This document shows positions 7,239 to 19,103 of a stretch of 64,000 bases of DNA, piece by piece. A program made the translations under genes and the position numbers. The stretch comes from Parafrankia discariae. GTDB taxonomy: Bacteria; Actinomycetota; Actinomycetes; Frankiales; Frankiaceae. Location: the NCBI RefSeq assembly GCF_000373365.1, contig NZ_KB891263.1, positions 42,299 to 106,298 on the forward strand, written 5' to 3'. The notes below the pieces were generated by a model that was not told the origin of the DNA, did not search any database, and saw nothing but the letters and a program-made list of their open reading frames with translations. Positions within the stretch are counted from its first letter, which is position 1, and every line of letters starts with the position of its first letter.

Positions 7239-7778
7239 TCAGGCGGTGGCCGGTACCTGCTCGTGGCTCTCGATCGTCACGGCCACCGCGTGCACGACCG
7301 AGGCGATCCGGATCGCGTCCTGGATGACTTCCCGAGGCACCCCGCGCTCACGCAGCTCGTGCTCGTGGGCGGTCAGGCACATGCCGCAGCCGTTCACCGC
7401 CGACGCCGCCAGCGACCAGAGCTCGAAGTCGACCTTGTCGACGCCGGGGTTGGCGATGGCGTTCATCCGCAGCCCGGCGCGCAGCCTGGAGTACTCCTTG
7501 TCCTCCAGCAGGTGCAGCGTCCGGTAGTACACGTTGTTCATCGCCATCAGCGCGGCGGCCGTACGAGCCGCCTTGGCGGCCTCGGGGCTGAGATGCTCCA
7601 GCGCCTCGGTCTCGAGCTCGGTCAGGGTGGTCGCGCCGCGGCTGGCGATCGCCGACGTCAGGACGGTGCCCCACAGCTGCTGGGGGTTCAGCTGCGACTG
7701 GGAGGTCACCGAGCCGAGGTTGAGGCGTAGGTCCTTGGCGTAGTCGGGAAGCAGCTCCCGCAGCCGGGCGACTCCCAT
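7239..7778 (-). CDS. ahpD: Alkyl hydroperoxide reductase AhpD (carboxymuconolactone-decarboxylase fold)
   Basis: A 179-residue AhpD, the small disulfide reductase that re-reduces AhpC with electrons passed from lipoylated proteins in mycobacteria. The catalytic set is complete: Glu119, Cys131, Cys134 and His138 in FELWSL and [10 protein letters not shown], matching the known proton-relay arrangement of the family. The ATG at 7778 overlaps the ahpC stop codon (TGATG), so the two are translated from one message with coupling. The pair is divergent from oxyR. Confidence 0.96.
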
Positions 7779-8341
7779 CAGGCCGCGACCTCCGCCGGGG
7801 CCGGCGCCGCGGCACCCAGGGTGGCCTCGCCCTTCTGCCAGTTGCACGGGCACAGCTCGTCGGTCTGCAGCGCGTCGAGCACCCGCAGCACCTCGGCCGG
7901 GTTCCGGCCGACGCTGCCGGCGGTGACCATGACGAACTGGATGACGCCGTCCGGGTCGATGACGAAGGTCGCCCGCTGCGCCACACCGTCGTCGCCGAGC
8001 ACCCCGGCGGCCGCGGTGAGCTCGCGCTTGATGTCCGCCAGCATCGGGAACGGGAGCTCGCGCAGGTCGGAGTGGTTCTGCCGCCACGCGAGGTGGACGT
8101 ACTCGCTGTCCGTGGAGACGCCGAGGACCTGCGCGTCGCGGTCGGCGAACTCGGAGTTGAGCCGGCCGAAGGCGGCGATCTCGGTCGGACACACGAAGGT
8201 GAAGTCCTTCGGCCAGAAGAACACGACCCGCCACTGCCCGGTGCGGCTGGTGGAGGTCTCCTGGACGAACGCGGTGTCGGGGTCGCTGGACACGACGCCG
8301 GTCAGGTCGTAGGCGGGGAACACGTCGCCGACGGTCAGCAC
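7778..8341 (-). CDS. ahpC: Alkyl hydroperoxide reductase AhpC, 2-Cys peroxiredoxin
   Basis: A 187-residue cytoplasmic peroxidase that reduces hydrogen peroxide and organic hydroperoxides. The peroxidatic Cys51 lies in the canonical FTFVCPTE motif. Cys164 and Cys166 in LCPCNW are the resolving pair near the C-terminus, an arrangement typical of actinobacterial AhpC enzymes that work with AhpD. It is the first gene of the ahpC-ahpD operon and is divergent from oxyR with a 111-base shared control region, the classical layout for OxyR-controlled peroxide defence. Confidence 0.97.
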
Positions 8342-8452: not shown

Positions 8453-9415
8453 ATGGCTCAACCTCAGCCAACGCTCGCTCAGCTACGGGCCCTCGTGGGT
8501 GTCGCGGATCACCGGCACTTCGGTCGGGCCGCGACCTCGCTGCACGTCAGCCAGCCGACCCTGTCGAGCGCGATCGCCGCGCTGGAACGCACCCTGGGCA
8601 TCCAGCTGGTCGAGCGGACGACCCGCAGCGTGCTGCTGACGCCGGTGGGGGAGGAGATCGTCCAGCGGGCGCGCGGGGTGCTCGGCGCCGTCGACGACAT
8701 CGCCCAGCTCGCGATGCGCGCGCGGGCACCGCTGTCGGGCGACATCCGGCTCGGCGTGATCCCCACGGTGGCGCCCTACCTGCTGCCGCGGCTGCTGCCG
8801 TCGCTACGGGCCCGCCGGCCGGACGCCCGGCTGCGGCTGCGCGAGGCGCAGACGTCCGCGCTGCTGGAGGAGTTGCGCGGCGGCTCGCTGGACCTGGCGC
8901 TGCTCGCCCTGCCGACGGACGAGCCCGGGGTGGCCGAGCTGCCGCTCTACGACGAGGACTTCGTGCTCGTGATGCCCGTCGATCATCCGATGGCCGGCGG
9001 CGCCGCGCTGCCGGTGTCCTCCCTGTGCGGGCGGGATCTGCTCCTGCTGGAGGACGGGCACTGCTTCCGGGCGCAGGCCCTGGACGTCTGCCGCGAGGCC
9101 GGGGCACGCGAGCGCAGCGCGCTGCGCGCGGCGAGCCTGTCCACGATCGTGCAGATGGTCGCCGGCGGCCTGGGGCTGACGCTGATCCCGGCGGCGGCGG
9201 TGGGCGTCGAGGTGGGGGAGGGGCGCGGCCTGGCGACGGCGACCTTCCGCGACCCGGCGCCGCGCCGGCGCATCGGACTGGCCTACCGGACGACCTCGGC
9301 CCGGGTGGCGGACTGGACCCTGCTCGCGGCCGAGATCCGGGAGGCGCTGCCCGGCACCGGCCTGGAGGTGACACCGGTGCCCGCGCCCGAGCGGGTACCG
9401 GTCCCGGTCGGCTGA
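8453..9415 (+). CDS. oxyR: Hydrogen-peroxide sensor OxyR, LysR family
   Basis: A 320-residue LysR-type activator. The N-terminal helix-turn-helix is at residues 18-50 (FGRAATSLHVSQPTLSSAIA). The two redox cysteines are present: Cys204 in GHCFRAQ and Cys213 in DVCREAG, nine residues apart like Cys199 and Cys208 of the E. coli protein. A disulfide between them switches the protein to its active form. It is divergent from ahpC-ahpD, its expected target. A 7-bp hairpin CCGGCCC-N5-GGGCCGG follows directly after the stop codon. Confidence 0.94.
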   Translation: MAQPQPTLAQLRALVGVADHRHFGRAATSLHVSQPTLSSAIAALERTLGIQLVERTTRSVLLTPVGEEIVQRARGVLGAVDDIAQLAMRARAPLSGDIRLGVIPTVAPYLLPRLLPSLRARRPDARLRLREAQTSALLEELRGGSLDLALLALPTDEPGVAELPLYDEDFVLVMPVDHPMAGGAALPVSSLCGRDLLLLEDGHCFRAQALDVCREAGARERSALRAASLSTIVQMVAGGLGLTLIPAAAVGVEVGEGRGLATATFRDPAPRRRIGLAYRTTSARVADWTLLAAEIREALPGTGLEVTPVPAPERVPVPVG

Positions 9416-10220: not shown

Positions 10221-12824
10221 ATGAGCGACGCGCGGATCGCGGCCGTCGGTGTTGAAGAAGAATTCCACATTCTCGATCTCGCTACCAGGCAGCTGGTGCC
10301 CCGCGCGGAGGAGATCCTGCGCGGCCTCCCCGACGACCAGTACTCCCCGGAGCTGCTGCGCTCCGTGGTCGAAACCAACAGTCGGCCCTGTACGGACCTC
10401 TCCGACCTGCGGGCGGACCTGCTAGACCTGCGCCGCCGCCTCGCCGCGGTGGCCGAGCCGCTCGGCCTCGGCCCCGCCGCAGCGGGAACGGTGCCGATCG
10501 TCGACATGTCCGTCCTGGACGTCTCGCGGGACCCGCGCTACATCCAGATGACCGAGGAGTACCAGCTGCTCGCGCGCGAGCAGCTCATCTGCGGCGCCCA
10601 GGTCCACGTGGACGTCGCCGACCGTGACCTGGCGATGGCCGTCACCGCCTGGGTGGCGCCCTGGCTGCCGATGCTGCTGGCGCTCTCGGCGAGCTCGCCG
10701 TTCTGGCGCGGTTCCGACAGCGGCTACGCGAGCATGCGGACGATGGTCTGGCAGCGCTGGCCGACCGCCGGCGTGGCCGGGCCGTTCCGCACCGCCGCCG
10801 AGTACGACCAGTTGGTGGCGGACCTGGTGAAGTCCGGCGTCATCAGCGACCCGGGCATGGTCTACTTCGACGTCCGGCCGTCCGCCCACCTGCCGACCGT
10901 CGAGCTGCGCATCTGCGACGCCTGCCCGGACGTCGACAACGTCATCCTGATCGCGGGGCTGTTCCGGGCGCTGGTGTGCCGGGCGATCGAGGCGGTGGAG
11001 GCCGGCGCGCCGGCGCCGCCGCCGCGCGCCGAGCTGCTGCGCGCGGCCACCTGGCGGGCGGCCCGCTCCGGCATCGAGGGTGACCTCGTGGACCTGTCGG
11101 GCACCGGCAGCATGCCGGCCGAGGAGCTGCTGCGCCGACTGGTCACCGAGGTCCGCCCCGACCTGGAGAAGGTCGGCGACTGGGACCTGGTCCGTGACCT
11201 GGCCGAGGCGGCGGTGGGGCGGGGCAGCGCCGCGTCCCGTCAGCGGCGGGCCTTCGCCCGCCGCGGCCTGCTGACCGACGTCGCGGACCTCGTGCTGGCC
11301 GAGACCCGCGAGTCGCCGACGTCGGCGGTCCACCCGCCGGGCACCGTCGCGTCGGTGGGCGCGGCGGCCGCGCTGCCGCCGCTGCTGGACCGCTACCAGC
11401 CGTCCGGGTTCGACGAGGTCATCGCGGAGGACGGCGGCGTCCGGGCGCACTACCGCGGCGTCGTGCGCACCCTGGACCGCCTCGGCCCGGCCGTGCTCGC
11501 CGAACGCGGCGAGGCCATGCAGGCAGAGCAGATCGAGCGCGGCGTGGTGTTCCGGGTGAACGGCGAGACCGAGCAGCGCCCGTTCCCGTTCGACCTGGTT
11601 CCACGGGTCGTCACCCCGGGCGACTGGGAACGGCTGCAGGCCGGGCTCACCCAGCGGGTGCGGGCGCTGGAGGCGTTCCTGCGCGACACCTACTCGGAGC
11701 GCGCCGCGGTCGCCGACGGGGTGATCCCGGCCTGGCTGGTCAACGACTCGCCGGGGCTGCGCCACTCCGGCCGGGTCCTGTCCGGCGACGGGTCGCCACG
11801 CTCCGGCGGCATCCGGGTGACCGTGGCGGGCATCGACCTCGTCCGCGGCGCCGACGGCAAGTGGCTCGTGCTGGAGGACAACCTGCGGGTGCCCTCCGGG
11901 ATCGCCTACGCGGTCGAGGGCCGGCGGCTGACCCGTTCGGCGCTGCCCGAGCTCAACCCGCCCGGGGCCATCCTGGGCGTGGACGCGGTGCCGGCGCTGC
12001 TGCACGAGGCGCTGGTCGCCGCGGCCCCGCCGGCGGTGCGCGGGGAGCCCGCCGTCGCCGTCCTGACCGTCGGCGAGGAGGACTCCGCCTACTACGAGCA
12101 CACCTTCCTCGCCGAGGAGATGGGGGTGCCGCTGCTGACCCCGGCCGACATCCTGGTCGACGACGACGACGTGCTCTACGCCGTCGACGGCGGGCGGCGC
12201 CGCCGGATCGACGTCCTCTACCGGCGGGTGGACGAGGACGAGCTGACCGGGCTGCCGGGCGCCGACGGGCTGCCGCTGGGCCCCGGGCTGCTGCGCGCGG
12301 TGCGGGCCGGCACGCTCGCGCTGGCGAACGCGCTGGGCAACGGGGTCGCCGACGACAAGGTCGTCTACGCCTACGTCTCCAGGATGATCACTTACTACCT
12401 GGGTGAGCAGCCGCTGCTCGACGACGTCCCGACCTACGTCTGCGGTGACCAGGAGCAGTGCTCGCACGTCCTGGAGCATCTCGAGCAGCTCGTCGTGAAG
12501 CCGGTGGTGGACGGCTACGGCGGTTCCGGGGTGGTGATCGGCCCGCAGGCCGAGCCGTTCGAGCTGACCGAGGTCCGCGAGCGGATCCTGGCCGACCCGC
12601 GCGGCTGGATCGGCCAGGAGATGGTCGCGCTGTCGACCCATCCCACCTGGGTCGACGGTGAGCTCCAGCCGTGCGCGGTCGATCTGCGGGCCTTCGTCTA
12701 CGCCGGTCGCGAGACCGCCGTGGTCGCCCCGGCGGCTCTGAGTCGGGTCGCGCCGCCGGGCAGCCTGATCGTCAACTCGTCCCGGGGTGGCGGGTCGAAG
12801 GACACCTGGCTGCTGCGTCCCTGA
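10221..12824 (+). CDS. Fused YbdK-type carboxylate-amine ligase and circularly permuted ATP-grasp ligase
   Basis: An 867-residue, two-enzyme fusion. Residues 1 to about 365 are a GCS2/YbdK carboxylate-amine ligase (GVEEEFHIL at 10-18, then VPIVDMSV and TVELRICDACPDVD), related to glutamate-cysteine ligases. Residues 385-867 are a circularly permuted ATP-grasp of the DUF404/DUF407 type (LVLEDNLRVPSGIAY, DDKVVYAYVSRMITYYLGE, VVKPVVDGYGGSGVVIGP, RAFVYAGRETAVVAPAALSRVA). Both halves look complete. Together they could form two amide or peptide bonds using ATP. The next gene is an AsnO-type amidotransferase, which suggests a small blocked peptide as product; that is inference. A 14-bp terminator-like hairpin follows the stop. 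Confidence 0.9.
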   Translation: MSDARIAAVGVEEEFHILDLATRQLVPRAEEILRGLPDDQYSPELLRSVVETNSRPCTDLSDLRADLLDLRRRLAAVAEPLGLGPAAAGTVPIVDMSVLDVSRDPRYIQMTEEYQLLAREQLICGAQVHVDVADRDLAMAVTAWVAPWLPMLLALSASSPFWRGSDSGYASMRTMVWQRWPTAGVAGPFRTAAEYDQLVADLVKSGVISDPGMVYFDVRPSAHLPTVELRICDACPDVDNVILIAGLFRALVCRAIEAVEAGAPAPPPRAELLRAATWRAARSGIEGDLVDLSGTGSMPAEELLRRLVTEVRPDLEKVGDWDLVRDLAEAAVGRGSAASRQRRAFARRGLLTDVADLVLAETRESPTSAVHPPGTVASVGAAAALPPLLDRYQPSGFDEVIAEDGGVRAHYRGVVRTLDRLGPAVLAERGEAMQAEQIERGVVFRVNGETEQRPFPFDLVPRVVTPGDWERLQAGLTQRVRALEAFLRDTYSERAAVADGVIPAWLVNDSPGLRHSGRVLSGDGSPRSGGIRVTVAGIDLVRGADGKWLVLEDNLRVPSGIAYAVEGRRLTRSALPELNPPGAILGVDAVPALLHEALVAAAPPAVRGEPAVAVLTVGEEDSAYYEHTFLAEEMGVPLLTPADILVDDDDVLYAVDGGRRRRIDVLYRRVDEDELTGLPGADGLPLGPGLLRAVRAGTLALANALGNGVADDKVVYAYVSRMITYYLGEQPLLDDVPTYVCGDQEQCSHVLEHLEQLVVKPVVDGYGGSGVVIGPQAEPFELTEVRERILADPRGWIGQEMVALSTHPTWVDGELQPCAVDLRAFVYAGRETAVVAPAALSRVAPPGSLIVNSSRGGGSKDTWLLRP

Positions 12825-12830
12825 GCGTCC

Positions 12831-12868
12831 CCGACGGCCGGCGGTCCCCTGGGCCCGCCGGCCGTCGG
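12831..12868 (+). terminator. 14-bp hairpin after the ligase fusion gene
   Basis: CCGACGGCCGGCGG and its exact complement around a 10-base loop, beginning six bases past the stop codon. No T-run. If it terminates efficiently, the amidotransferase gene needs its own promoter in 12870-13081. Confidence 0.65.
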
Positions 12869-13081
12869 CGTGCGCGTGAACGGTCGCGCACCGCAACACC
12901 CTTGTCATTGTGGTGAAACCTGGGCCGTCGAATGTGGTCCTCGGCATCGCACCGCGCCACCCGCCGTCATCGCGGGGCACCCGCCCCGACGGTCCCGGCG
13001 GGTCCCCGGAACCGGGTGGGCGGACGTCGTCGAGGAGGGGAAGAACGGCCGTCCGACCAACCGATCGACGGGAGCTGGACT

Positions 13082-14863
13082 ATGTGCGGGTTGAGCGGGG
13101 AGCTGAGGTTCGACGGCCGGGAGGCGGACGTCGCCGCGGTGGGGCGGATGACCGCCGCGATGGAGGCCCGGGGCCCGGACGGGGTCGGCCTGTGGGCCAC
13201 CGGCCCGGTGGCGTTCGGCCACCGCCGACTGAAGATCATCGATCTGTCGGAGCGGGGCGCCCAGCCCATGGTCGACACCGCGCTCGGCCTCACCGCGGTG
13301 TTCAACGGCTGCATCTACAACTACCAGGAGCTGCGCGACCGGCTCGTCGACGCCGGCTACCGCTTCTTCTCCACCTCCGACACCGAGGTGATCCTCAAGG
13401 CCTACCACCACTGGGGTCCCCGGTGCGTCGACCACTTCGCCGGCATGTTCGCCTTCGCCGTGTACGAGCGTGACACCGGCCGGCTCGTCCTCGTCCGCGA
13501 CCGGCTCGGGATCAAGCCGCTCTACGTGGCCCGCGACCCGCACCGGCTGCGCTTCGCCTCCAGCCTGCCGGCCCTGCTCGCCGGCGGCGGGGTGTCCTCC
13601 GACATCGACCTGGTCGCCTTCCACCACTACCTGTCGTTCCACTCGGTGGTCCCGCCGCCGCACACGATCCTGGCCGGCGTGCGCAAGCTGCCGCAGGCCA
13701 CCATCCGGACCGTCGAGGCGGACGGCACCACCCGCGACGAGGTCTACTGGCGGCCCGACTTCACCCGCCAGGCCGACCACGCCTCCTGGACGGCGGACGA
13801 CTGGCGGGACGCGATCGGCGAGCGGCTGCGCACCGCCGTGCGCCGGCGCATGGTCGCCGACGTCCCCGTCGGGGTGCTGCTCTCCGGCGGTCTGGACTCC
13901 AGCCTCATCGTCGCGCTGCTCGCCGAGGCCGGGCAGCGCGACCTGGCCACGTTCAGCGTCGGCTTCGAGGCCGCCGGCGGCGAGTCCGGCGACGAGTTCC
14001 ACTACTCGGACATCATCGCCCGGCGCTTCGGCACCGACCACCACCAGATCCGCGTCCCCGGCGACCGGCTGCTGCCGGCGATCGACGCGGCCGTCGCCGC
14101 GATGAGCGAGCCGATGGTCAGCCACGACTGCGTCGCGTTCTACCTGCTCTCGCAGGAGGTGGCCCGGCACGTCAAGGTCGTGCAGTCCGGCCAGGGCGCC
14201 GACGAGGTCTTCGCCGGCTACTCCTGGTACCCGCCGCTGGCGAGCGTCCCGCGCGGCGACGCCGTCGACGCCTACCTGCGGGTGTTCGCCGACCGGCCGC
14301 ACTCCGAGCTGCCGGCGATGGTCGAGCCGCACCACCTCACCGAGGGCGATGCCAGCCGGCACTTCGTCGCCGAGCGGTTCGCCGAGCCCGGCGCGCAGAC
14401 CTCGGTCGACGCCGCGCTGCGCATCGACTCCACGGTGATGCTGGTCGACGACCCGGTGAAGCGGGTCGACAACATGACGATGGCGGCCGGCCTGGAGGCC
14501 CGCACCCCCTTCCTCGACCACGAGCTCGTCGAGCTCGCCGCCGCGTGCCCGCCCGAGCTGAAGCTCGCCTCCGGTGGCAAGGGCGTGCTCAAGGACCTCA
14601 GCCGGCCGCTGATGCCGGCGGACGTCATCGACCGGCCGAAGGGCTACTTCCCGGTGCCGGCGATCCGCCACCTCGACGGCCCGTTCCTGGCCCGGGTCGC
14701 CGACGCGCTGACCGACCCGGTCGCCCGGGGCCGCGGGCTGTTCCGCAAGGACTGGGTCGACGAGATGCTCGCCGACCCGAACTCGAACCGCACGACGCTC
14801 GGGGCGAACGCGCTCTGGCAGGCCGCCCTGCTCGAGATGTGGCTGCAGACACAGGGGGTGTGA
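13082..14863 (+). CDS. AsnO-type glutamine-dependent amidotransferase (asparagine synthase family)
   Basis: A 593-residue enzyme. The start at 13082 exposes Cys2 (MCGLSGEL), the glutaminase nucleophile once Met is removed. The class II glutaminase domain (RGPDGVGLW, FNGCIYNYQELR, RDRLGIKPLY) is followed by the AsnB-like synthetase domain with the PP-loop SGGLDSS at residues 268-274. The overall pattern, including RMVADVPVGVLLSGG and SHDCVAFYLLSQ, fits the subfamily that amidates N-acetylglutaminylglutamine (AsnO) better than ordinary AsnB. It likely converts a carboxylate on the product of the ligase at 10221 to an amide. A TnpB element end lies directly after its stop codon. Confidence 0.9.
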   Translation: MCGLSGELRFDGREADVAAVGRMTAAMEARGPDGVGLWATGPVAFGHRRLKIIDLSERGAQPMVDTALGLTAVFNGCIYNYQELRDRLVDAGYRFFSTSDTEVILKAYHHWGPRCVDHFAGMFAFAVYERDTGRLVLVRDRLGIKPLYVARDPHRLRFASSLPALLAGGGVSSDIDLVAFHHYLSFHSVVPPPHTILAGVRKLPQATIRTVEADGTTRDEVYWRPDFTRQADHASWTADDWRDAIGERLRTAVRRRMVADVPVGVLLSGGLDSSLIVALLAEAGQRDLATFSVGFEAAGGESGDEFHYSDIIARRFGTDHHQIRVPGDRLLPAIDAAVAAMSEPMVSHDCVAFYLLSQEVARHVKVVQSGQGADEVFAGYSWYPPLASVPRGDAVDAYLRVFADRPHSELPAMVEPHHLTEGDASRHFVAERFAEPGAQTSVDAALRIDSTVMLVDDPVKRVDNMTMAAGLEARTPFLDHELVELAAACPPELKLASGGKGVLKDLSRPLMPADVIDRPKGYFPVPAIRHLDGPFLARVADALTDPVARGRGLFRKDWVDEMLADPNSNRTTLGANALWQAALLEMWLQTQGV

Positions 14864-14865
14864 TT

Positions 14866-14908
14866 GACATCCTCCCCGCTCTGAGGGGCGGGGATTTCAA
14901 TTAATTTC
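14866..14908 (-). repeat. TnpB (IS1341-type) element right end with terminal hairpin
   Basis: Read on the minus strand, this is the conserved end of an IS200/IS605-group TnpB element: CCCCGC (14888-14893 complement) pairs with GCGGGG (14874-14879) across a short loop, followed by GGATGTCAAT. In active elements this hairpin closes the 3' end of the omega RNA, and the adjoining flank is the guide. The flank here is the 3' end of the amidotransferase gene. Confidence 0.65.
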
Positions 14909-15397
14909 ACACAACGACCAGAGGAGGTGTGGTTAGTTGAGGTTCACGGTTCACGGGCTTCGGCAATCCGATGCCTCCCCGCGCGGTCACGGCGTGCCCC
15001 GCCGCGATGTTCCTGGCCGCGTTCGCGTCGGCGACATGCCCGCAGGCAGAACAGAGCTGGGAGGTGTACGCGGCGGGTTTTTTCTCGACCCGGCCGGGCG
15101 CCTTGTCCTCAAGGCGCTTTACCGGCAGGCCCCACCCGTTCGCCGGGATCGCCCGGTTCGGGCCTGCTTTCTGTCGGACGTTCCTGCCCGGCCCGGTCCC
15201 TGGTGACCCGGTGCCGGTCCGCGTCGCGGCGTCCACCATGCCTGCTGTTCTACGGCAAGATTCCACACAAACCGCGCATGGTGGCAGTGGGATTCCAGTA
15301 CGGCAGCCTGTTCGGGTGCTGGGTAAAGCCGGAACCGGGACAGGTCGCATTCTACCGAAAGGATACGAACATGCGTTCTGACGTGGGACGGCGTTTC
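14907..15397 (-). pseudogene. tnpB: Degenerate TnpB (IS200/IS605-group RNA-guided nuclease) remnant
   Basis: Two TnpB pieces in different frames. The N-terminal piece (15119-15397) reads FRLYPAPEQAAVLESHCHHARFVWNLAVEQQ in short segments, typical of TnpB starts. The C-terminal piece (14907 to about 15170) reads YTSQLCSACGHV then ADANAARNIAAG, the zinc ribbon and last RuvC motif. The whole middle of the protein (about 300 residues) is gone, the second CxxC pair of the zinc ribbon is missing, and the frames do not match. It cannot make a working nuclease. The end hairpin beside it is intact. Confidence 0.82.
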
Positions 15398-15438
15398 CGC
15401 CCCGGTATGAAGGTCCGGGTCGCCACACCGCAAACCCG

Positions 15439-17718
15439 ATGATCCGTCCGGTCGAGTCGGTTCTCACCGGCTTCCCGCCCCAAACCGTCGCGGCGCGGTG
15501 TGAGACCACCGCGGCACCAGCCGGTGCGCTGCCGGCTGGTGCCGTCCCGGTCCAACCGGTGGACTCGCCGATCCTGGGAGCGGTGGAGTCGTCGCCCCCG
15601 GCCCCGCGGGACCTGGTGGACGAGTGGGCCGCGCCGCCGAGTGTGCGCGGGCCCGCACCCGGCCCGGACGGCTCGATCGCCTTCGTCGGGGACGCCACCG
15701 GCCGGCCGGCCCTGTGGGTCCGCGCGGCCGACGGGACGGAACGGGTCCTCGACACCGGCCCGGCGCACGTCCGGGCGGCGCTGTGGTCCCCGGACGGCGC
15801 CTGGATCGCGATCACCGTCGCCCCGGGCGGCGGAGAGCACACCGAGGTCCACCTCGTCCGCCCGGACGGCACGGTCCGCCCGGACGGCACGGTCCGCCCG
15901 GACGGCACGGCGACGCACCGGCTGGCCGGTGGCGTCCGGCCCGGCACGGCGGGAGCCGTGGAGGCGTGCGCGGCCACGGCCTCCCGGTGGGCGGCGGGCG
16001 GGCGGCTGCTCGTGGTCACCGAGTCCGCCCGCTCCGGGCTGACCCACGTGGTCGCCGTCGACCCGGCCGGGCACCGCCGCCACCTCGCCGTGGGACTGGC
16101 CCTGCAGGTCTGCGCTGTCCACGAGACCGCCGACCGGTGGCTGCTGCTCCTGCGGGAGGGCCCGCGCGGCGCCCGGCGCGTGCTGGTGGCCCGGGTCGAC
16201 GCGCCCGACCCGCTGGGACCGGGCGCAGCCCCGCTCGAGGCGTTCCCGCTCAACGACGAGATGACCAGCGGACTGGCCGCGGGGGCGGTCGGCGGCGGGA
16301 CCGCCGGCGGGGTCGCGGTCGAGGCGTTCGAGGTCGCGGGCGGCACCGCCACGGCCGTCTCGGGCACGTTCGCCGCGGACGCCTCCCGCGCCCTGCTCGC
16401 CTGCGACCTCGGCCGCGACCGGGTGGGCCTGCTCGAGGTGCTCCTCGACCCGGCCGGCCGGCCGGGGCCGACCCGGCTGCTCGCCGGCCGCGCCGACGCG
16501 GACCTCGAGCGCCTGCTGCTCCTCGACCCGGCCACGGCCGTGCTCGGCTGGAACGTCGGCGGGCGCACCGAGCTCGCCGTCCACAGCCTGGCCGACGGGA
16601 CGTCGCGCCCCCTGCCGTCGTTGCCCCGCGAGGTGGTCACCGGCCTGCTCCCCGGCCCCGACGGGGCGGGCCTGCTCCTGGCACTGGACGGCTCCACCGC
16701 CCCCGGCGAGGTGTGGACCTGCGACCTGACCGACGCCTCGGCGGGCACGGCGGGCACGGCGGGCGGCGGCGGGCCGGCCTACCGCTGCCTGATCTCGCAC
16801 ACGCCGACGGCGTACCCCACCGTCGAGATCACGGATGTCGCCACGAACGGCCCGGAGGACGTGGGCTACCGGTTCGTCCGCCCGGTCGCGCGCCGCTTCC
16901 TCGCCCACGACGGGCTGGAGCTCACCGGCTGGTGGTACCGCCCGCGGGTGGGCCCGGGGCCGGTGCCCACTCTGCTCTACTTCCACGGCGGACCGGAGGC
17001 GCAGGAGCGCCCGGTCCTCAACCCGCTCTTCCACGCGCTGCTCGCCCGCGGCATCGCCGTGTTCGCGCCGAACGTGCGCGGCTCCACCGGGTTCGGCCGC
17101 TCGTTCGAGGAGGCCGACCACCTGGCCGGCCGCTTCGCCGGGATCGCCGACGTCGCGAGCGCCGTGAACCACCTGGTCACCGAGGGCCTGGCCGCGCCGG
17201 GCCACATCGGCGTGGCCGGCCGCTCCTACGGCGGCTACCTGACGCTGGCCGCGCTGGTCCGCCACCCCGAGCTGTTCGCCGTCGGCGTCGACGTGTGCGG
17301 GATGGCCGACCTGGAGACCTTCTACCGGCACACCGAACCGTGGATCGCGGCTCCGGCGGTCACCAAGTACGGCGACCCGGCCACCGACCGCGACCTGCTG
17401 CGCGCGCTGTCGCCGCTGCACCGGATGGACGCGCTCGCGGCCCCGCTGCTGGTCGTGCACGGGGCCAACGACACCAACGTCCCCGTGTGCGAGGCCGAGC
17501 AGACCGTCGCGGCGGCCCGGGCCCGCGGGATCCCGTGTGAGTACCTGCTCTTCGAGGGGGAGGGCCACGAGGTCGCCGAGCGCGCGAACCGGCTGGTGTT
17601 CGTCCGCACCGTGGTGGAGTTCGTCGCGGGCCGGCTGACCGGCGCGCGGACGCCGGCGGACCACCTCGGCGAGGCCGGACTGCCGGTCGCGGCCGGGCGA
17701 CCGGTCGAGGTCGGCTGA
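15439..17718 (+). CDS. S9-family serine peptidase (prolyl oligopeptidase / acylaminoacyl-peptidase type)
   Basis: A 759-residue protein with a beta-propeller N-terminal half and an alpha/beta-hydrolase peptidase C-terminal half. The catalytic triad is complete: Ser596 (GRSYGGYL), Asp678 (GANDTNVP) and His710 (EGEGHEVA). LLYFHGGPEAQ provides the oxyanion region. Such enzymes cleave short peptides or release N-acylated residues. The ATG at 15439 has no clear ribosome binding site and lies just past the TnpB relic, so the true 5' end may have been altered by insertion. Residues 142-160 contain three perfect RPDGT repeats (18-base units). It follows a peptide-ligase and amidotransferase pair and could recycle their product; that is inference. 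Confidence 0.86.
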   Translation: MIRPVESVLTGFPPQTVAARCETTAAPAGALPAGAVPVQPVDSPILGAVESSPPAPRDLVDEWAAPPSVRGPAPGPDGSIAFVGDATGRPALWVRAADGTERVLDTGPAHVRAALWSPDGAWIAITVAPGGGEHTEVHLVRPDGTVRPDGTVRPDGTATHRLAGGVRPGTAGAVEACAATASRWAAGGRLLVVTESARSGLTHVVAVDPAGHRRHLAVGLALQVCAVHETADRWLLLLREGPRGARRVLVARVDAPDPLGPGAAPLEAFPLNDEMTSGLAAGAVGGGTAGGVAVEAFEVAGGTATAVSGTFAADASRALLACDLGRDRVGLLEVLLDPAGRPGPTRLLAGRADADLERLLLLDPATAVLGWNVGGRTELAVHSLADGTSRPLPSLPREVVTGLLPGPDGAGLLLALDGSTAPGEVWTCDLTDASAGTAGTAGGGGPAYRCLISHTPTAYPTVEITDVATNGPEDVGYRFVRPVARRFLAHDGLELTGWWYRPRVGPGPVPTLLYFHGGPEAQERPVLNPLFHALLARGIAVFAPNVRGSTGFGRSFEEADHLAGRFAGIADVASAVNHLVTEGLAAPGHIGVAGRSYGGYLTLAALVRHPELFAVGVDVCGMADLETFYRHTEPWIAAPAVTKYGDPATDRDLLRALSPLHRMDALAAPLLVVHGANDTNVPVCEAEQTVAAARARGIPCEYLLFEGEGHEVAERANRLVFVRTVVEFVAGRLTGARTPADHLGEAGLPVAAGRPVEVG

Positions 17719-17767
17719 CCGGACGGGAGCCGTCGGACCGGTCGCGCCCGCGACGGTCAGCGGGCGG

Positions 17768-18409
17768 TCAGCGGCGGGCGGATGGGCCGGTGGGGTGGTC
17801 CGCCCGCGCGCGTTCCAGCAGCAGCAGCTCGCCGGCCTCCTCGTCGTGCGCCCGGCCGATCACCGACAGGCCCAGCCGGCGCGCGACGCCGACCGACGCG
17901 TCGTGCGCCGGCGGGACGACGGCGAGCACCCGCCGGACCCGCGGGTCCTCGAACACCCAGTCGAGCAGCAGCCGCCCGCCCTCGACCGCGTACCCGCGCC
18001 CAACGAACTCGGGGTAGGTGGCGTACCCGAACTCGACGGTGCCGTCCGCGTCGGGCGGGCCGGACAGCGCCGGCGACCCGACCGCGGCCCCGGTGGCGCG
18101 GTCGACGGCGAGCCAGGCCCACCAGCCCAGCTCGGCCGGGCTGGCGGCCAGGCGGTCGCGCATCCGGGAGAGGGCGCCCTCCTCCAACGGGGGAGCCGCC
18201 AGCGGATCGGGGAAGACCGCCCCGGTGGCCCGCTGCGCGCCCGCGCGGTCGCCGCCGAGCAGCGCTCCCAGCGCCTCGACAGTCAGCGGCCGCAGGCACA
18301 GCCGCGGACCGTTCAGCGCCGGGCCACCCGCGCCGGGACGGGGCGGCTCGGGACAGTGGGGGTCGGGACGGGGTGGGTCAGCCGGCGACAACGCTGCTCC
18401 TGAAGGCAT
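17768..18409 (-). CDS. GNAT-family N-acetyltransferase, RimJ/RimL-like
   Basis: A 213-residue GNAT. Residues 1-30 are a Pro-rich extension, then LRPLTVEALGALL, and the acetyl-CoA binding segment FVGRGYAVEGGRLLLDWVF near residues 135-155, typical of the RimJ/RimL branch that acetylates protein N-termini or small amines. Substrate not predictable. It converges with the S9 peptidase gene, 49 bases apart. A hairpin GCCCGCCC-GGT-GGGCGGGC at 18431-18449 lies in its 5' region. Confidence 0.78.
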   Translation of the reverse strand: MPSGAALSPADPPRPDPHCPEPPRPGAGGPALNGPRLCLRPLTVEALGALLGGDRAGAQRATGAVFPDPLAAPPLEEGALSRMRDRLAASPAELGWWAWLAVDRATGAAVGSPALSGPPDADGTVEFGYATYPEFVGRGYAVEGGRLLLDWVFEDPRVRRVLAVVPPAHDASVGVARRLGLSVIGRAHDEEAGELLLLERARADHPTGPSARR

Positions 18410-18668
18410 CCTGTAGGTCTCTCTGTGTACGCCCGCCCGGTGGGCGGGCCCGCGCGACCGGCGCCGATCTCCCGGTCGCGCTGGGGACCCTAGCCGGGGG
18501 GTCCGACAGTTCGCGAGGTGTTTTCGGCCCGGGTGGCGGGCCCGGGCCGCCGGACGGGCGCCGCGTCCCGGGCGCCACGCCCGGCGTGATGTATGTCATC
18601 CGCACCTGGCGTCCGCCTATGCCCGTCCACACATCCCTGTCCACACGTCACGCCATCGAGCTGTAACA
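18410..18668. other. Divergent promoter region between two GNAT genes
   Basis: No gene. Contains the perfect 8-bp hairpin GCCCGCCC-GGT-GGGCGGGC at 18431-18449 in the probable leader of the minus-strand GNAT gene, and an AT-richer stretch at 18585-18670 before the plus-strand GNAT gene. Confidence 0.45.
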
Positions 18669-19103
18669 ATGCGTAATGTGAAGATAGAGGAGCTGGAGGC
18701 CGAACGCACCTGGCTGGCTTTCGATCCCATGCGGCAGCTGCGTCCTCATCTGACCTCGACCGGGTTCGTCAAGCTGGTGAACGAGGTGCAGCGTCCGCAG
18801 GGATACCGCCTGGTGGGGTCGTGGGACGGCGAGACCGGGAGGGTCGTGGCGGCCGTCGGCTTCCGGGAGAGCAGCTCGCTCGCCTACGGGCGGCACCTGC
18901 TCGTGGACGACCTGACGACGATGCCCGGGATGCGGGGGCGCGGGCACGCCACCCGGCTGCTCGCCTGGGTCGAACGGGAGGCGAAGCGCCTGGGCTGTGC
19001 CCAGATCCACCTGGACGCCGGCACGCACCGCCACGAGGCCCACCGCCTCTATCTGCGCAGCGGCTACATCATCCCGTCGTTCCACTTCGCCCGCCGGCTC
19101 TGA
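18669..19103 (+). CDS. Small GNAT-family N-acetyltransferase
   Basis: A 144-residue single-domain GNAT. The core LVDDLTTMPGMRGRGHATRLL (residues 78-98) holds the acetyl-CoA pyrophosphate-binding motif, and IHLDAGTHRHEAHRLYLRSGY is motif B. The start at 18669 has no clear ribosome binding site; the message may be leaderless or start a few codons later. In N-acetylglutaminylglutamine amide loci an acetyltransferase is the third activity, and this one lies 4 kb from the amidotransferase. That link is a guess based on proximity. Confidence 0.82.
   Translation: MRNVKIEELEAERTWLAFDPMRQLRPHLTSTGFVKLVNEVQRPQGYRLVGSWDGETGRVVAAVGFRESSSLAYGRHLLVDDLTTMPGMRGRGHATRLLAWVEREAKRLGCAQIHLDAGTHRHEAHRLYLRSGYIIPSFHFARRL

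Follow-up and report, generated by a model that had tools for sequence, protein, structure and literature searches.

A 64,000-nucleotide stretch of Parafrankia discariae DNA (hereafter, the window) carries an operon for a genuine variant of the N-acetylglutaminylglutamine amide (NAGGN)-type pathway, one that is conserved and has apparently gone unrecognised; its product and role are predictions. Our preferred reading, to which we assign a probability of roughly 0.6, is that the operon combines a ligase, an amide-capping enzyme and a turnover enzyme as the NAGGN system does, though with a ligase of the glutathione style, and that it would make a gamma-glutamyl peptide amide. The domains and folds, the conserved linkage of the genes, the mutually exclusive partners of AsnO and the near identity of AsnO across those partners are directly supported. 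The original prediction had proposed a new counterpart to the NAGGN system with both ligase and peptidase replaced. The replacement is borne out, as Ngg is missing, an S9 peptidase stands in for M42 and the partners are exclusive; the novelty extends to a variant that is apparently unrecognised, but Casuarina Frankia have already been credited with an ‘asnO-ngg cluster’ (PMC5563000).

The fused ligase

The first gene (10221–12824, + strand) is a single open frame of 867 residues. Pfam and NCBIfam models, an AF2 model with its PDB matches and a conserved position beside AsnO identify the product as a bifunctional ligase, a YbdK-type GCS2 domain fused to a circularly permuted (CP) ATP-grasp, confirming the domain composition first proposed for it. 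It is 98% identical to its counterpart in Parafrankia soli NRRL B-16219; the host genome is 7.9 Mb. The AF2 model has a pLDDT of 81 and a pTM of 0.58, with uncertain geometry between the domains.

The GCS2/YbdK domain (residues 6–364; 10236–11312, + strand) shares with YbdK/GCS2 carboxylate-amine ligases the PF04107 match (residues 9–284, E = 1e-55), the NCBIfam subfamily NF010041 (378 bits, cut-off 332) and the fold, matching 1TT4/1R8G with Z about 40 in structure comparison with the PDB; it differs from them in adjoining AsnO and S9 genes and in its fusion to a CP-ATP-grasp. The domain is a putative gamma-glutamyl ligase; its residues E12–E14, H129, E228 and R230 are at least 90% conserved. 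The CP_ATPgrasp_2 domain (residues 461–844; 11601–12752, + strand) matches PF14403 over its full length (profile positions 1–374 of 374, E = 2.8e-124). Its closest structural match is 3N6X, a CP ATP-grasp protein and putative glutathionylspermidine synthase (39% identity over 423 aligned residues, Z 33), followed by eukaryotic-type glutathione synthetases (Z 22–23) and glutathionylspermidine synthetase; unlike 3N6X and similar proteins, it is joined to GCS2 and linked to AsnO.

On the strength of these YbdK, 3N6X and glutathione synthetase fold matches, the modelled fusion is shaped like a two-step glutathione-style synthetase; shared folds do not fix substrates. Bifunctional glutathione synthetases such as 3LN7 likewise place a gamma-glutamyl ligase domain before an ATP-grasp, and glutathione amide is a precedent for amidation at the C-terminus of a gamma-glutamyl peptide. 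Here, however, the ligase and ATP-grasp domains belong to other families, a dedicated AsnO would do the capping and cysteine is at most a possible substrate. No glutamate-cysteine ligase equivalog model matches the fusion above its cut-off (gshA_cyano 37 against 249, EgtA 19.6 against 370.8, the other PRK1351x models lower too). The ATP-grasp domain is also distinct (29–35% identity) from same-phylum ATP-grasp proteins linked to the c6, c13 and c14 gene families (L112–L123, L125); the CP-ATP-grasp loci L112–L123 were rejected as relatives of this operon, having neither GCS2 nor AsnO and a different gene neighbourhood.

AsnO and the peptidase

The next gene, asnO (13082–14863, + strand), encodes a NAGGN-family glutamine amidotransferase/amide synthetase that belongs to TIGR03104 and the AsnO clade and carries Cys2. 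It scores 995.5 bits against TIGR03104 (cut-off 570.1) and 267.7 bits against the E. coli-type AsnB model PRK09431, below the cut-off of 499, and is therefore nearer AsnO than AsnB, as had been suggested. It also passes the broad model TIGR01536, as does the Ngg-linked AsnO of Azospirillum. We place its start at 13082 and not at 12932 because the Cys2 nucleophile (MCG...) has to come right after the first Met; Cys2 is present in 85 of 85 aligned AsnO sequences. The enzyme is 58.9% identical to that of S. meliloti pSymB.

In a tree with AsnB-like rows L174–L188 as outgroup, AsnO forms one clade on a long stem, separated from AsnB-like rows of the same phylum with support of 99–100. Another outgroup candidate, L015, was dropped as a GlmS-like protein. 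The clade also takes in the NAGGN-type AsnO of S. meliloti and Azospirillum, and the AsnB-like enzymes fall outside it, which upholds the phylogenetic placement on which the original prediction depended. Of 593 alignment columns, 198 are nearly invariant whatever the partner type, and 28 of these (for example M345, S347, H348, Q368 and K460) do not occur in the AsnB-like rows. An identity as ordinary AsnB is rejected by the model scores, by the tree and by these signature columns. Only columns 528, 570 and 574 discriminate Ngg-linked from GCS2-linked AsnO, from which we infer that the amidated end of the acceptor would be alike in both pathways; the remainder of the molecule may differ.

The third gene (15439–17718, + strand) encodes an S9 (prolyl oligopeptidase family) peptidase, a putative turnover enzyme, which matches PF00326 (4.5e-42) and retains the catalytic-triad motifs GRSYGG, HGANDTNV and GEGHE; the S9 assignment made at the outset stands.

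Exclusive partners and conserved linkage

NAGGN is a known peptide of salt stress whose synthesis AsnO completes. The operon shares with the NAGGN system (AsnO-Ngg-M42; S. meliloti and Pseudomonas aeruginosa PA3459–PA3461; reaction scheme as summarised in PMC8070244) the AsnO equivalog family and clade and an organisation of ligase, amidotransferase and peptidase. It differs in that Ngg, a GNAT/ATP-grasp protein, gives way to GCS2 with or without CP-ATP-grasp, and M42 to S9. The best match to Ngg (TIGR03103) in the host genome reaches 31 bits against a cut-off of 569, none of the Frankiaceae genomes listed has an Ngg, and no GCS2-linked locus, including the sister locus L088, has an M42 match, S9 being found instead. 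Membership of the NAGGN system proper is rejected on the absence of Ngg and M42.

Our class sample of 297 genomes contains AsnO in 85 (86 loci). By gene coordinates, the neighbour is Ngg at 44 loci, GCS2 or the fusion at 38, neither at 4 and both at 0; 42 of the 86 loci in this actinomycete sample are without an adjacent Ngg. One locus (G216), with its GCS2 half on a different contig, was counted by its adjacent ATP-grasp. The peptidases follow the ligases: among 87 loci read with flanks, Ngg occurs with M42 in 16 and GCS2 with S9 in 51, with 0 crossovers (Fisher P = 9e-16, uncorrected for kinship, which inflates the significance). GCS2-linked AsnO is found in at least four lineages of the tree, so the split is not a one-lineage effect. 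S9 adjoins GCS2-AsnO in 51 of 59 GCS2-linked loci; the proposed substitution of S9 for M42 thus meets no crossover, but S9 is missing from one Frankiaceae subgroup.

The fusion and AsnO genes are adjacent on the same strand in 24 of 25 AsnO-bearing Frankiaceae genomes and also in other families and classes, which argues against chance and extends the predicted co-occurrence beyond close relatives. The trio GCS2-AsnO-S9 recurs in Streptomyces (AsnO in 18 of 25 loci), Nonomuraea, Streptosporangiaceae and other families. We distinguish the arrangements as types I–VI. Type I is AsnO-Ngg, usually with M42. Type II is fusion-AsnO, usually with S9 (Frankiaceae, L100, L109, L110 and, in another class, L218 with fusion-AsnO-S9), and type III a stand-alone GCS2 with AsnO, again usually with S9 (Streptomyces, Nonomuraea, f17, f18 and, in another class, L221 with GCS2-AsnO). 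In type IV no recognised ligase accompanies AsnO, but S9 mostly does (L105, L108, L153); type V is the fusion without AsnO, either with S9 (L124, L134–136) or without it (L132, L133). Type VI, seen in f56, is CP-ATP-grasp-AsnO-DUF1028, to which L223 adds a divergent GCS2 gene (GCS2-ATPgrasp-AsnO-DUF1028, another class).

Because fusion-S9, fusion alone and AsnO-S9 each occur, the modules separate (types IV and V) and do not prove a pathway in which all three enzymes are obligate. Beyond Frankiaceae, ATP-grasp is missing from most GCS2-linked loci, so the GCS2 step is the core and the ATP-grasp step an extension. The idea that a ligase pair takes the place of Ngg consequently holds for the replacement but not for the pair, since GCS2 stands alone in Streptomyces and Streptosporangiaceae. 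Type VI AsnO is nested within the Ngg clade, from which a ligase exchange probably happened in that lineage. The AsnO tree does not separate its deepest branches and is compatible with either Ngg or GCS2 as the ancestral partner.

Proteobacteria were sampled through plasmid records only. In L139, an orphan Ngg is preceded by an open frame that matches no Pfam family and is perhaps not a gene.

Proposed pathway and alternatives

For the substrates, the order of steps, the amidation site and the turnover and osmolyte roles, we infer the following scheme. The GCS2 domain would couple an amino acid, possibly glutamine, to glutamate at the gamma-carboxyl of the latter; the ATP-grasp domain, where fused, would extend the peptide carboxyl by one residue in the manner of glutathione synthetase. 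AsnO would then use glutamine-derived ammonia to turn the terminal carboxyl of the peptide into an amide, and the S9 peptidase may hydrolyse the product when demand for it ends. The expected compound is a gamma-glutamyl peptide amide, small and either uncharged or zwitterionic, which would most likely serve as a compatible solute or stress metabolite.

The locus might instead make NAGGN itself, the fusion and a small GNAT replacing Ngg by acetylating glutamine and coupling it to another, with AsnO performing its known reaction. The small GNAT (18669–19103, + strand; PF00583) is kept beside AsnO in Frankiaceae (a 14-locus cluster), Ngg-linked and GCS2-linked AsnO are nearly indistinguishable, and NAGGN has been assumed for Frankia (PMC5563000). 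In Streptomyces and Streptosporangiaceae, however, the GCS2-AsnO-S9 loci have no conserved GNAT, so that this route could serve in Frankiaceae but not readily where the GNAT is absent. Those GCS2 enzymes whose activity is known use the glutamate gamma-carboxyl for ligation, which also speaks against this route. Moreover, genome G197 holds both an AsnO-Ngg-M42 locus (L165) and a second AsnO near GCS2 (L111, where a glutamine synthetase gene sits between the two). Synthesis of NAGGN by this operon is therefore unlikely.

The resemblance of the fusion to glutamate-cysteine ligase plus glutathione synthetase would also suit a redox pathway, in which a glutathione-like gamma-Glu-Cys-X is capped by AsnO to give a thiol like glutathione amide, which occurs in nature (PMC8877833). 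In part of the Frankiaceae, genes for OxyR and AhpC lie upstream. In the window these are an OxyR-like regulator (8453–9415, + strand; PRK11151 264.6 bits, below the cut-off of 329) and, divergent from it, an AhpC-like peroxiredoxin (7778–8341, − strand) named by reading its sequence. The OxyR-like gene precedes the fusion in many Frankiaceae loci, with uncertain relevance, and the AhpC-like gene is a conserved neighbour in part of the family. This linkage is nevertheless limited to some Frankiaceae, the thiol normally used by actinobacteria is mycothiol, and AsnO carries the signature of NAGGN-type enzymes; we regard a thiol product as quite improbable.

An amidated peptide that is excreted as a signal or acts like an antibiotic, as opposed to a stress solute, would accord with the variable accessory genes and patchy presence in Streptomyces, which fit specialised metabolism, and with the oligopeptide ABC transporter genes that flank one type VI locus (L216). 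It is very unlikely given that the loci share no conserved exporter, resistance gene or tailoring enzyme and that the fusion is near-universal in AsnO-bearing Frankiaceae, which fits a basic physiological role. Finally, the notion that AsnO is the ordinary asparagine synthetase of the cell, with unrelated neighbours, is barely tenable: no other protein of the genome matches the TIGR01536 family with an E-value as low as 1e-40, but the same is true of the classical AsnO-Ngg genomes G012 and G019, AsnO forms its own clade on a long stem, its GCS2 linkage is kept across families and classes, and the host genome has GatB and no AsnRS above cut-off, so that asparagine can form on tRNA and a free-asparagine synthetase is unnecessary for translation.

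Returning to a gamma-glutamyl peptide amide as the product, a wider and more tentative picture can be drawn from the comparison of loci. AsnO might be an interchangeable capping enzyme of several peptide-solute pathways, among which GCS2-AsnO-S9, widespread in Actinomycetota, would make an undescribed gamma-glutamyl peptide amide; Ngg and NAGGN may be a derived branch with a new ligase, and further exchange (type VI) may have followed.

Relation to published and database annotations

The gene order fusion-AsnO-S9-GNAT is found in L093, which we take to be F. casuarinae CcI3. In the published ‘asnO-ngg cluster’ of Casuarina Frankia, AsnO is >60% identical to other AsnO, the ‘Ngg’ is <15% identical to other Ngg, and a dipeptidase lies between ‘Ngg’ and AsnO (PMC5563000). 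Given the order in L093, the small GNAT is probably what was described as ‘Ngg’, and the upstream fusion the true ligase. In F. alni, FRAAL1888 has been described as an osmotically induced NAGGN enzyme (PMC5768760); no match between FRAAL1888 and the AsnO studied here was established. NCBI names the Streptomyces trio ‘glutamate-cysteine ligase / N-acetylglutaminylglutamine amidotransferase / alpha/beta fold hydrolase’, and we saw two examples of a non-Ngg AsnO named ‘N-acetylglutaminylglutamine amidotransferase’. ‘NAGGN’ labels, including that of the published Frankia cluster, are probably over-assigned, and genomes with this gene set (Frankia, Streptomyces and many other actinobacteria) that are labelled as NAGGN makers probably produce an uncharacterised relative of NAGGN instead.

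The open-access literature that we searched yielded no earlier mention of the GCS2-AsnO-S9 neighbourhood, though one may exist elsewhere. If our reading is correct, a small metabolite that is widespread among soil and nitrogen-fixing symbiotic actinobacteria awaits discovery, the operon names the three enzymes to assay, and a solute pathway would have evolved by replacing its ligase and its peptidase while the capping enzyme stayed constant.

Other features of the locus

A second GNAT gene lies on the opposite strand (17768–18409, − strand; PF13302). Both predicted GNAT genes are thus present, but only the + strand one is conserved, and that in Frankiaceae only; the reverse-strand gene, weakly conserved and found in few loci, is probably unrelated to the pathway. 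The 575 bp that separate asnO from the S9 gene (14864–15438, − strand) are occupied by the relic of an IS605-family element with N- and C-terminal TnpB fragments (HTH_OrfB_IS605, 5e-9; TNB domain, 9.5e-5, under its cut-off). Sister strain L088 does not have the relic, and only a few bases lie between its asnO and S9 genes; the host genome contains one full copy of the element.

AsnO and ATP-grasp neighbourhoods in other genomes

In family f56, a circularly permuted (CP) ATP-grasp gene adjoins that of AsnO, the NAGGN-family amidotransferase, at loci L216, L223 and L232. Both of the f56 loci that were scanned (L216 and L223) also encode a DUF1028 protein, and these AsnO/CP-ATP-grasp/DUF1028 loci possibly represent a third peptidase variant. 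L223 contains a divergent GCS2 gene in addition, and L216 is surrounded by oligopeptide ABC transporter genes.

CP-ATP-grasp proteins of approximately 860 residues at L112–L123 form a distinct conserved neighbourhood, usually adjoining the same two to three gene families (sizes about 300, 335 and 1,100 residues), with both GCS2 and AsnO absent from these loci.

AsnO, type I glutamine synthetase and GCS2 genes adjoin one another at L111 (G197:C3, 8816–13545), in a genome that also holds a classical AsnO–Ngg–M42 locus (L165). Genome G064 encodes Ngg, the known ligase partner of AsnO (L139, G064:C6, 8790–10421), with no AsnO found nearby or elsewhere in that genome at a threshold of E 1e-150; the same genome carries a fusion–S9 peptidase pair without AsnO (L124). 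The fusion looks degraded at L097, in a small Frankiaceae genome, where a 71-residue remnant of the ATP-grasp C terminus (G181:C155, 7756–7971) adjoins AsnO–S9.

Local features of the window locus

Residues 760–768 of the window fusion read KPVVDGYGG, with one additional valine, encoded by a tandem GTG, in the ATP-grasp loop. This valine is absent from all aligned relatives, including the sister strain (KPVDGYGG or similar), and is either a natural variant or a sequencing error. The stretch that separates asnO from the S9 gene (window 14864–15438) is precisely an inserted IS605-family relic, comprising N- and C-terminal TnpB fragments; the genome has only one full copy of this element.
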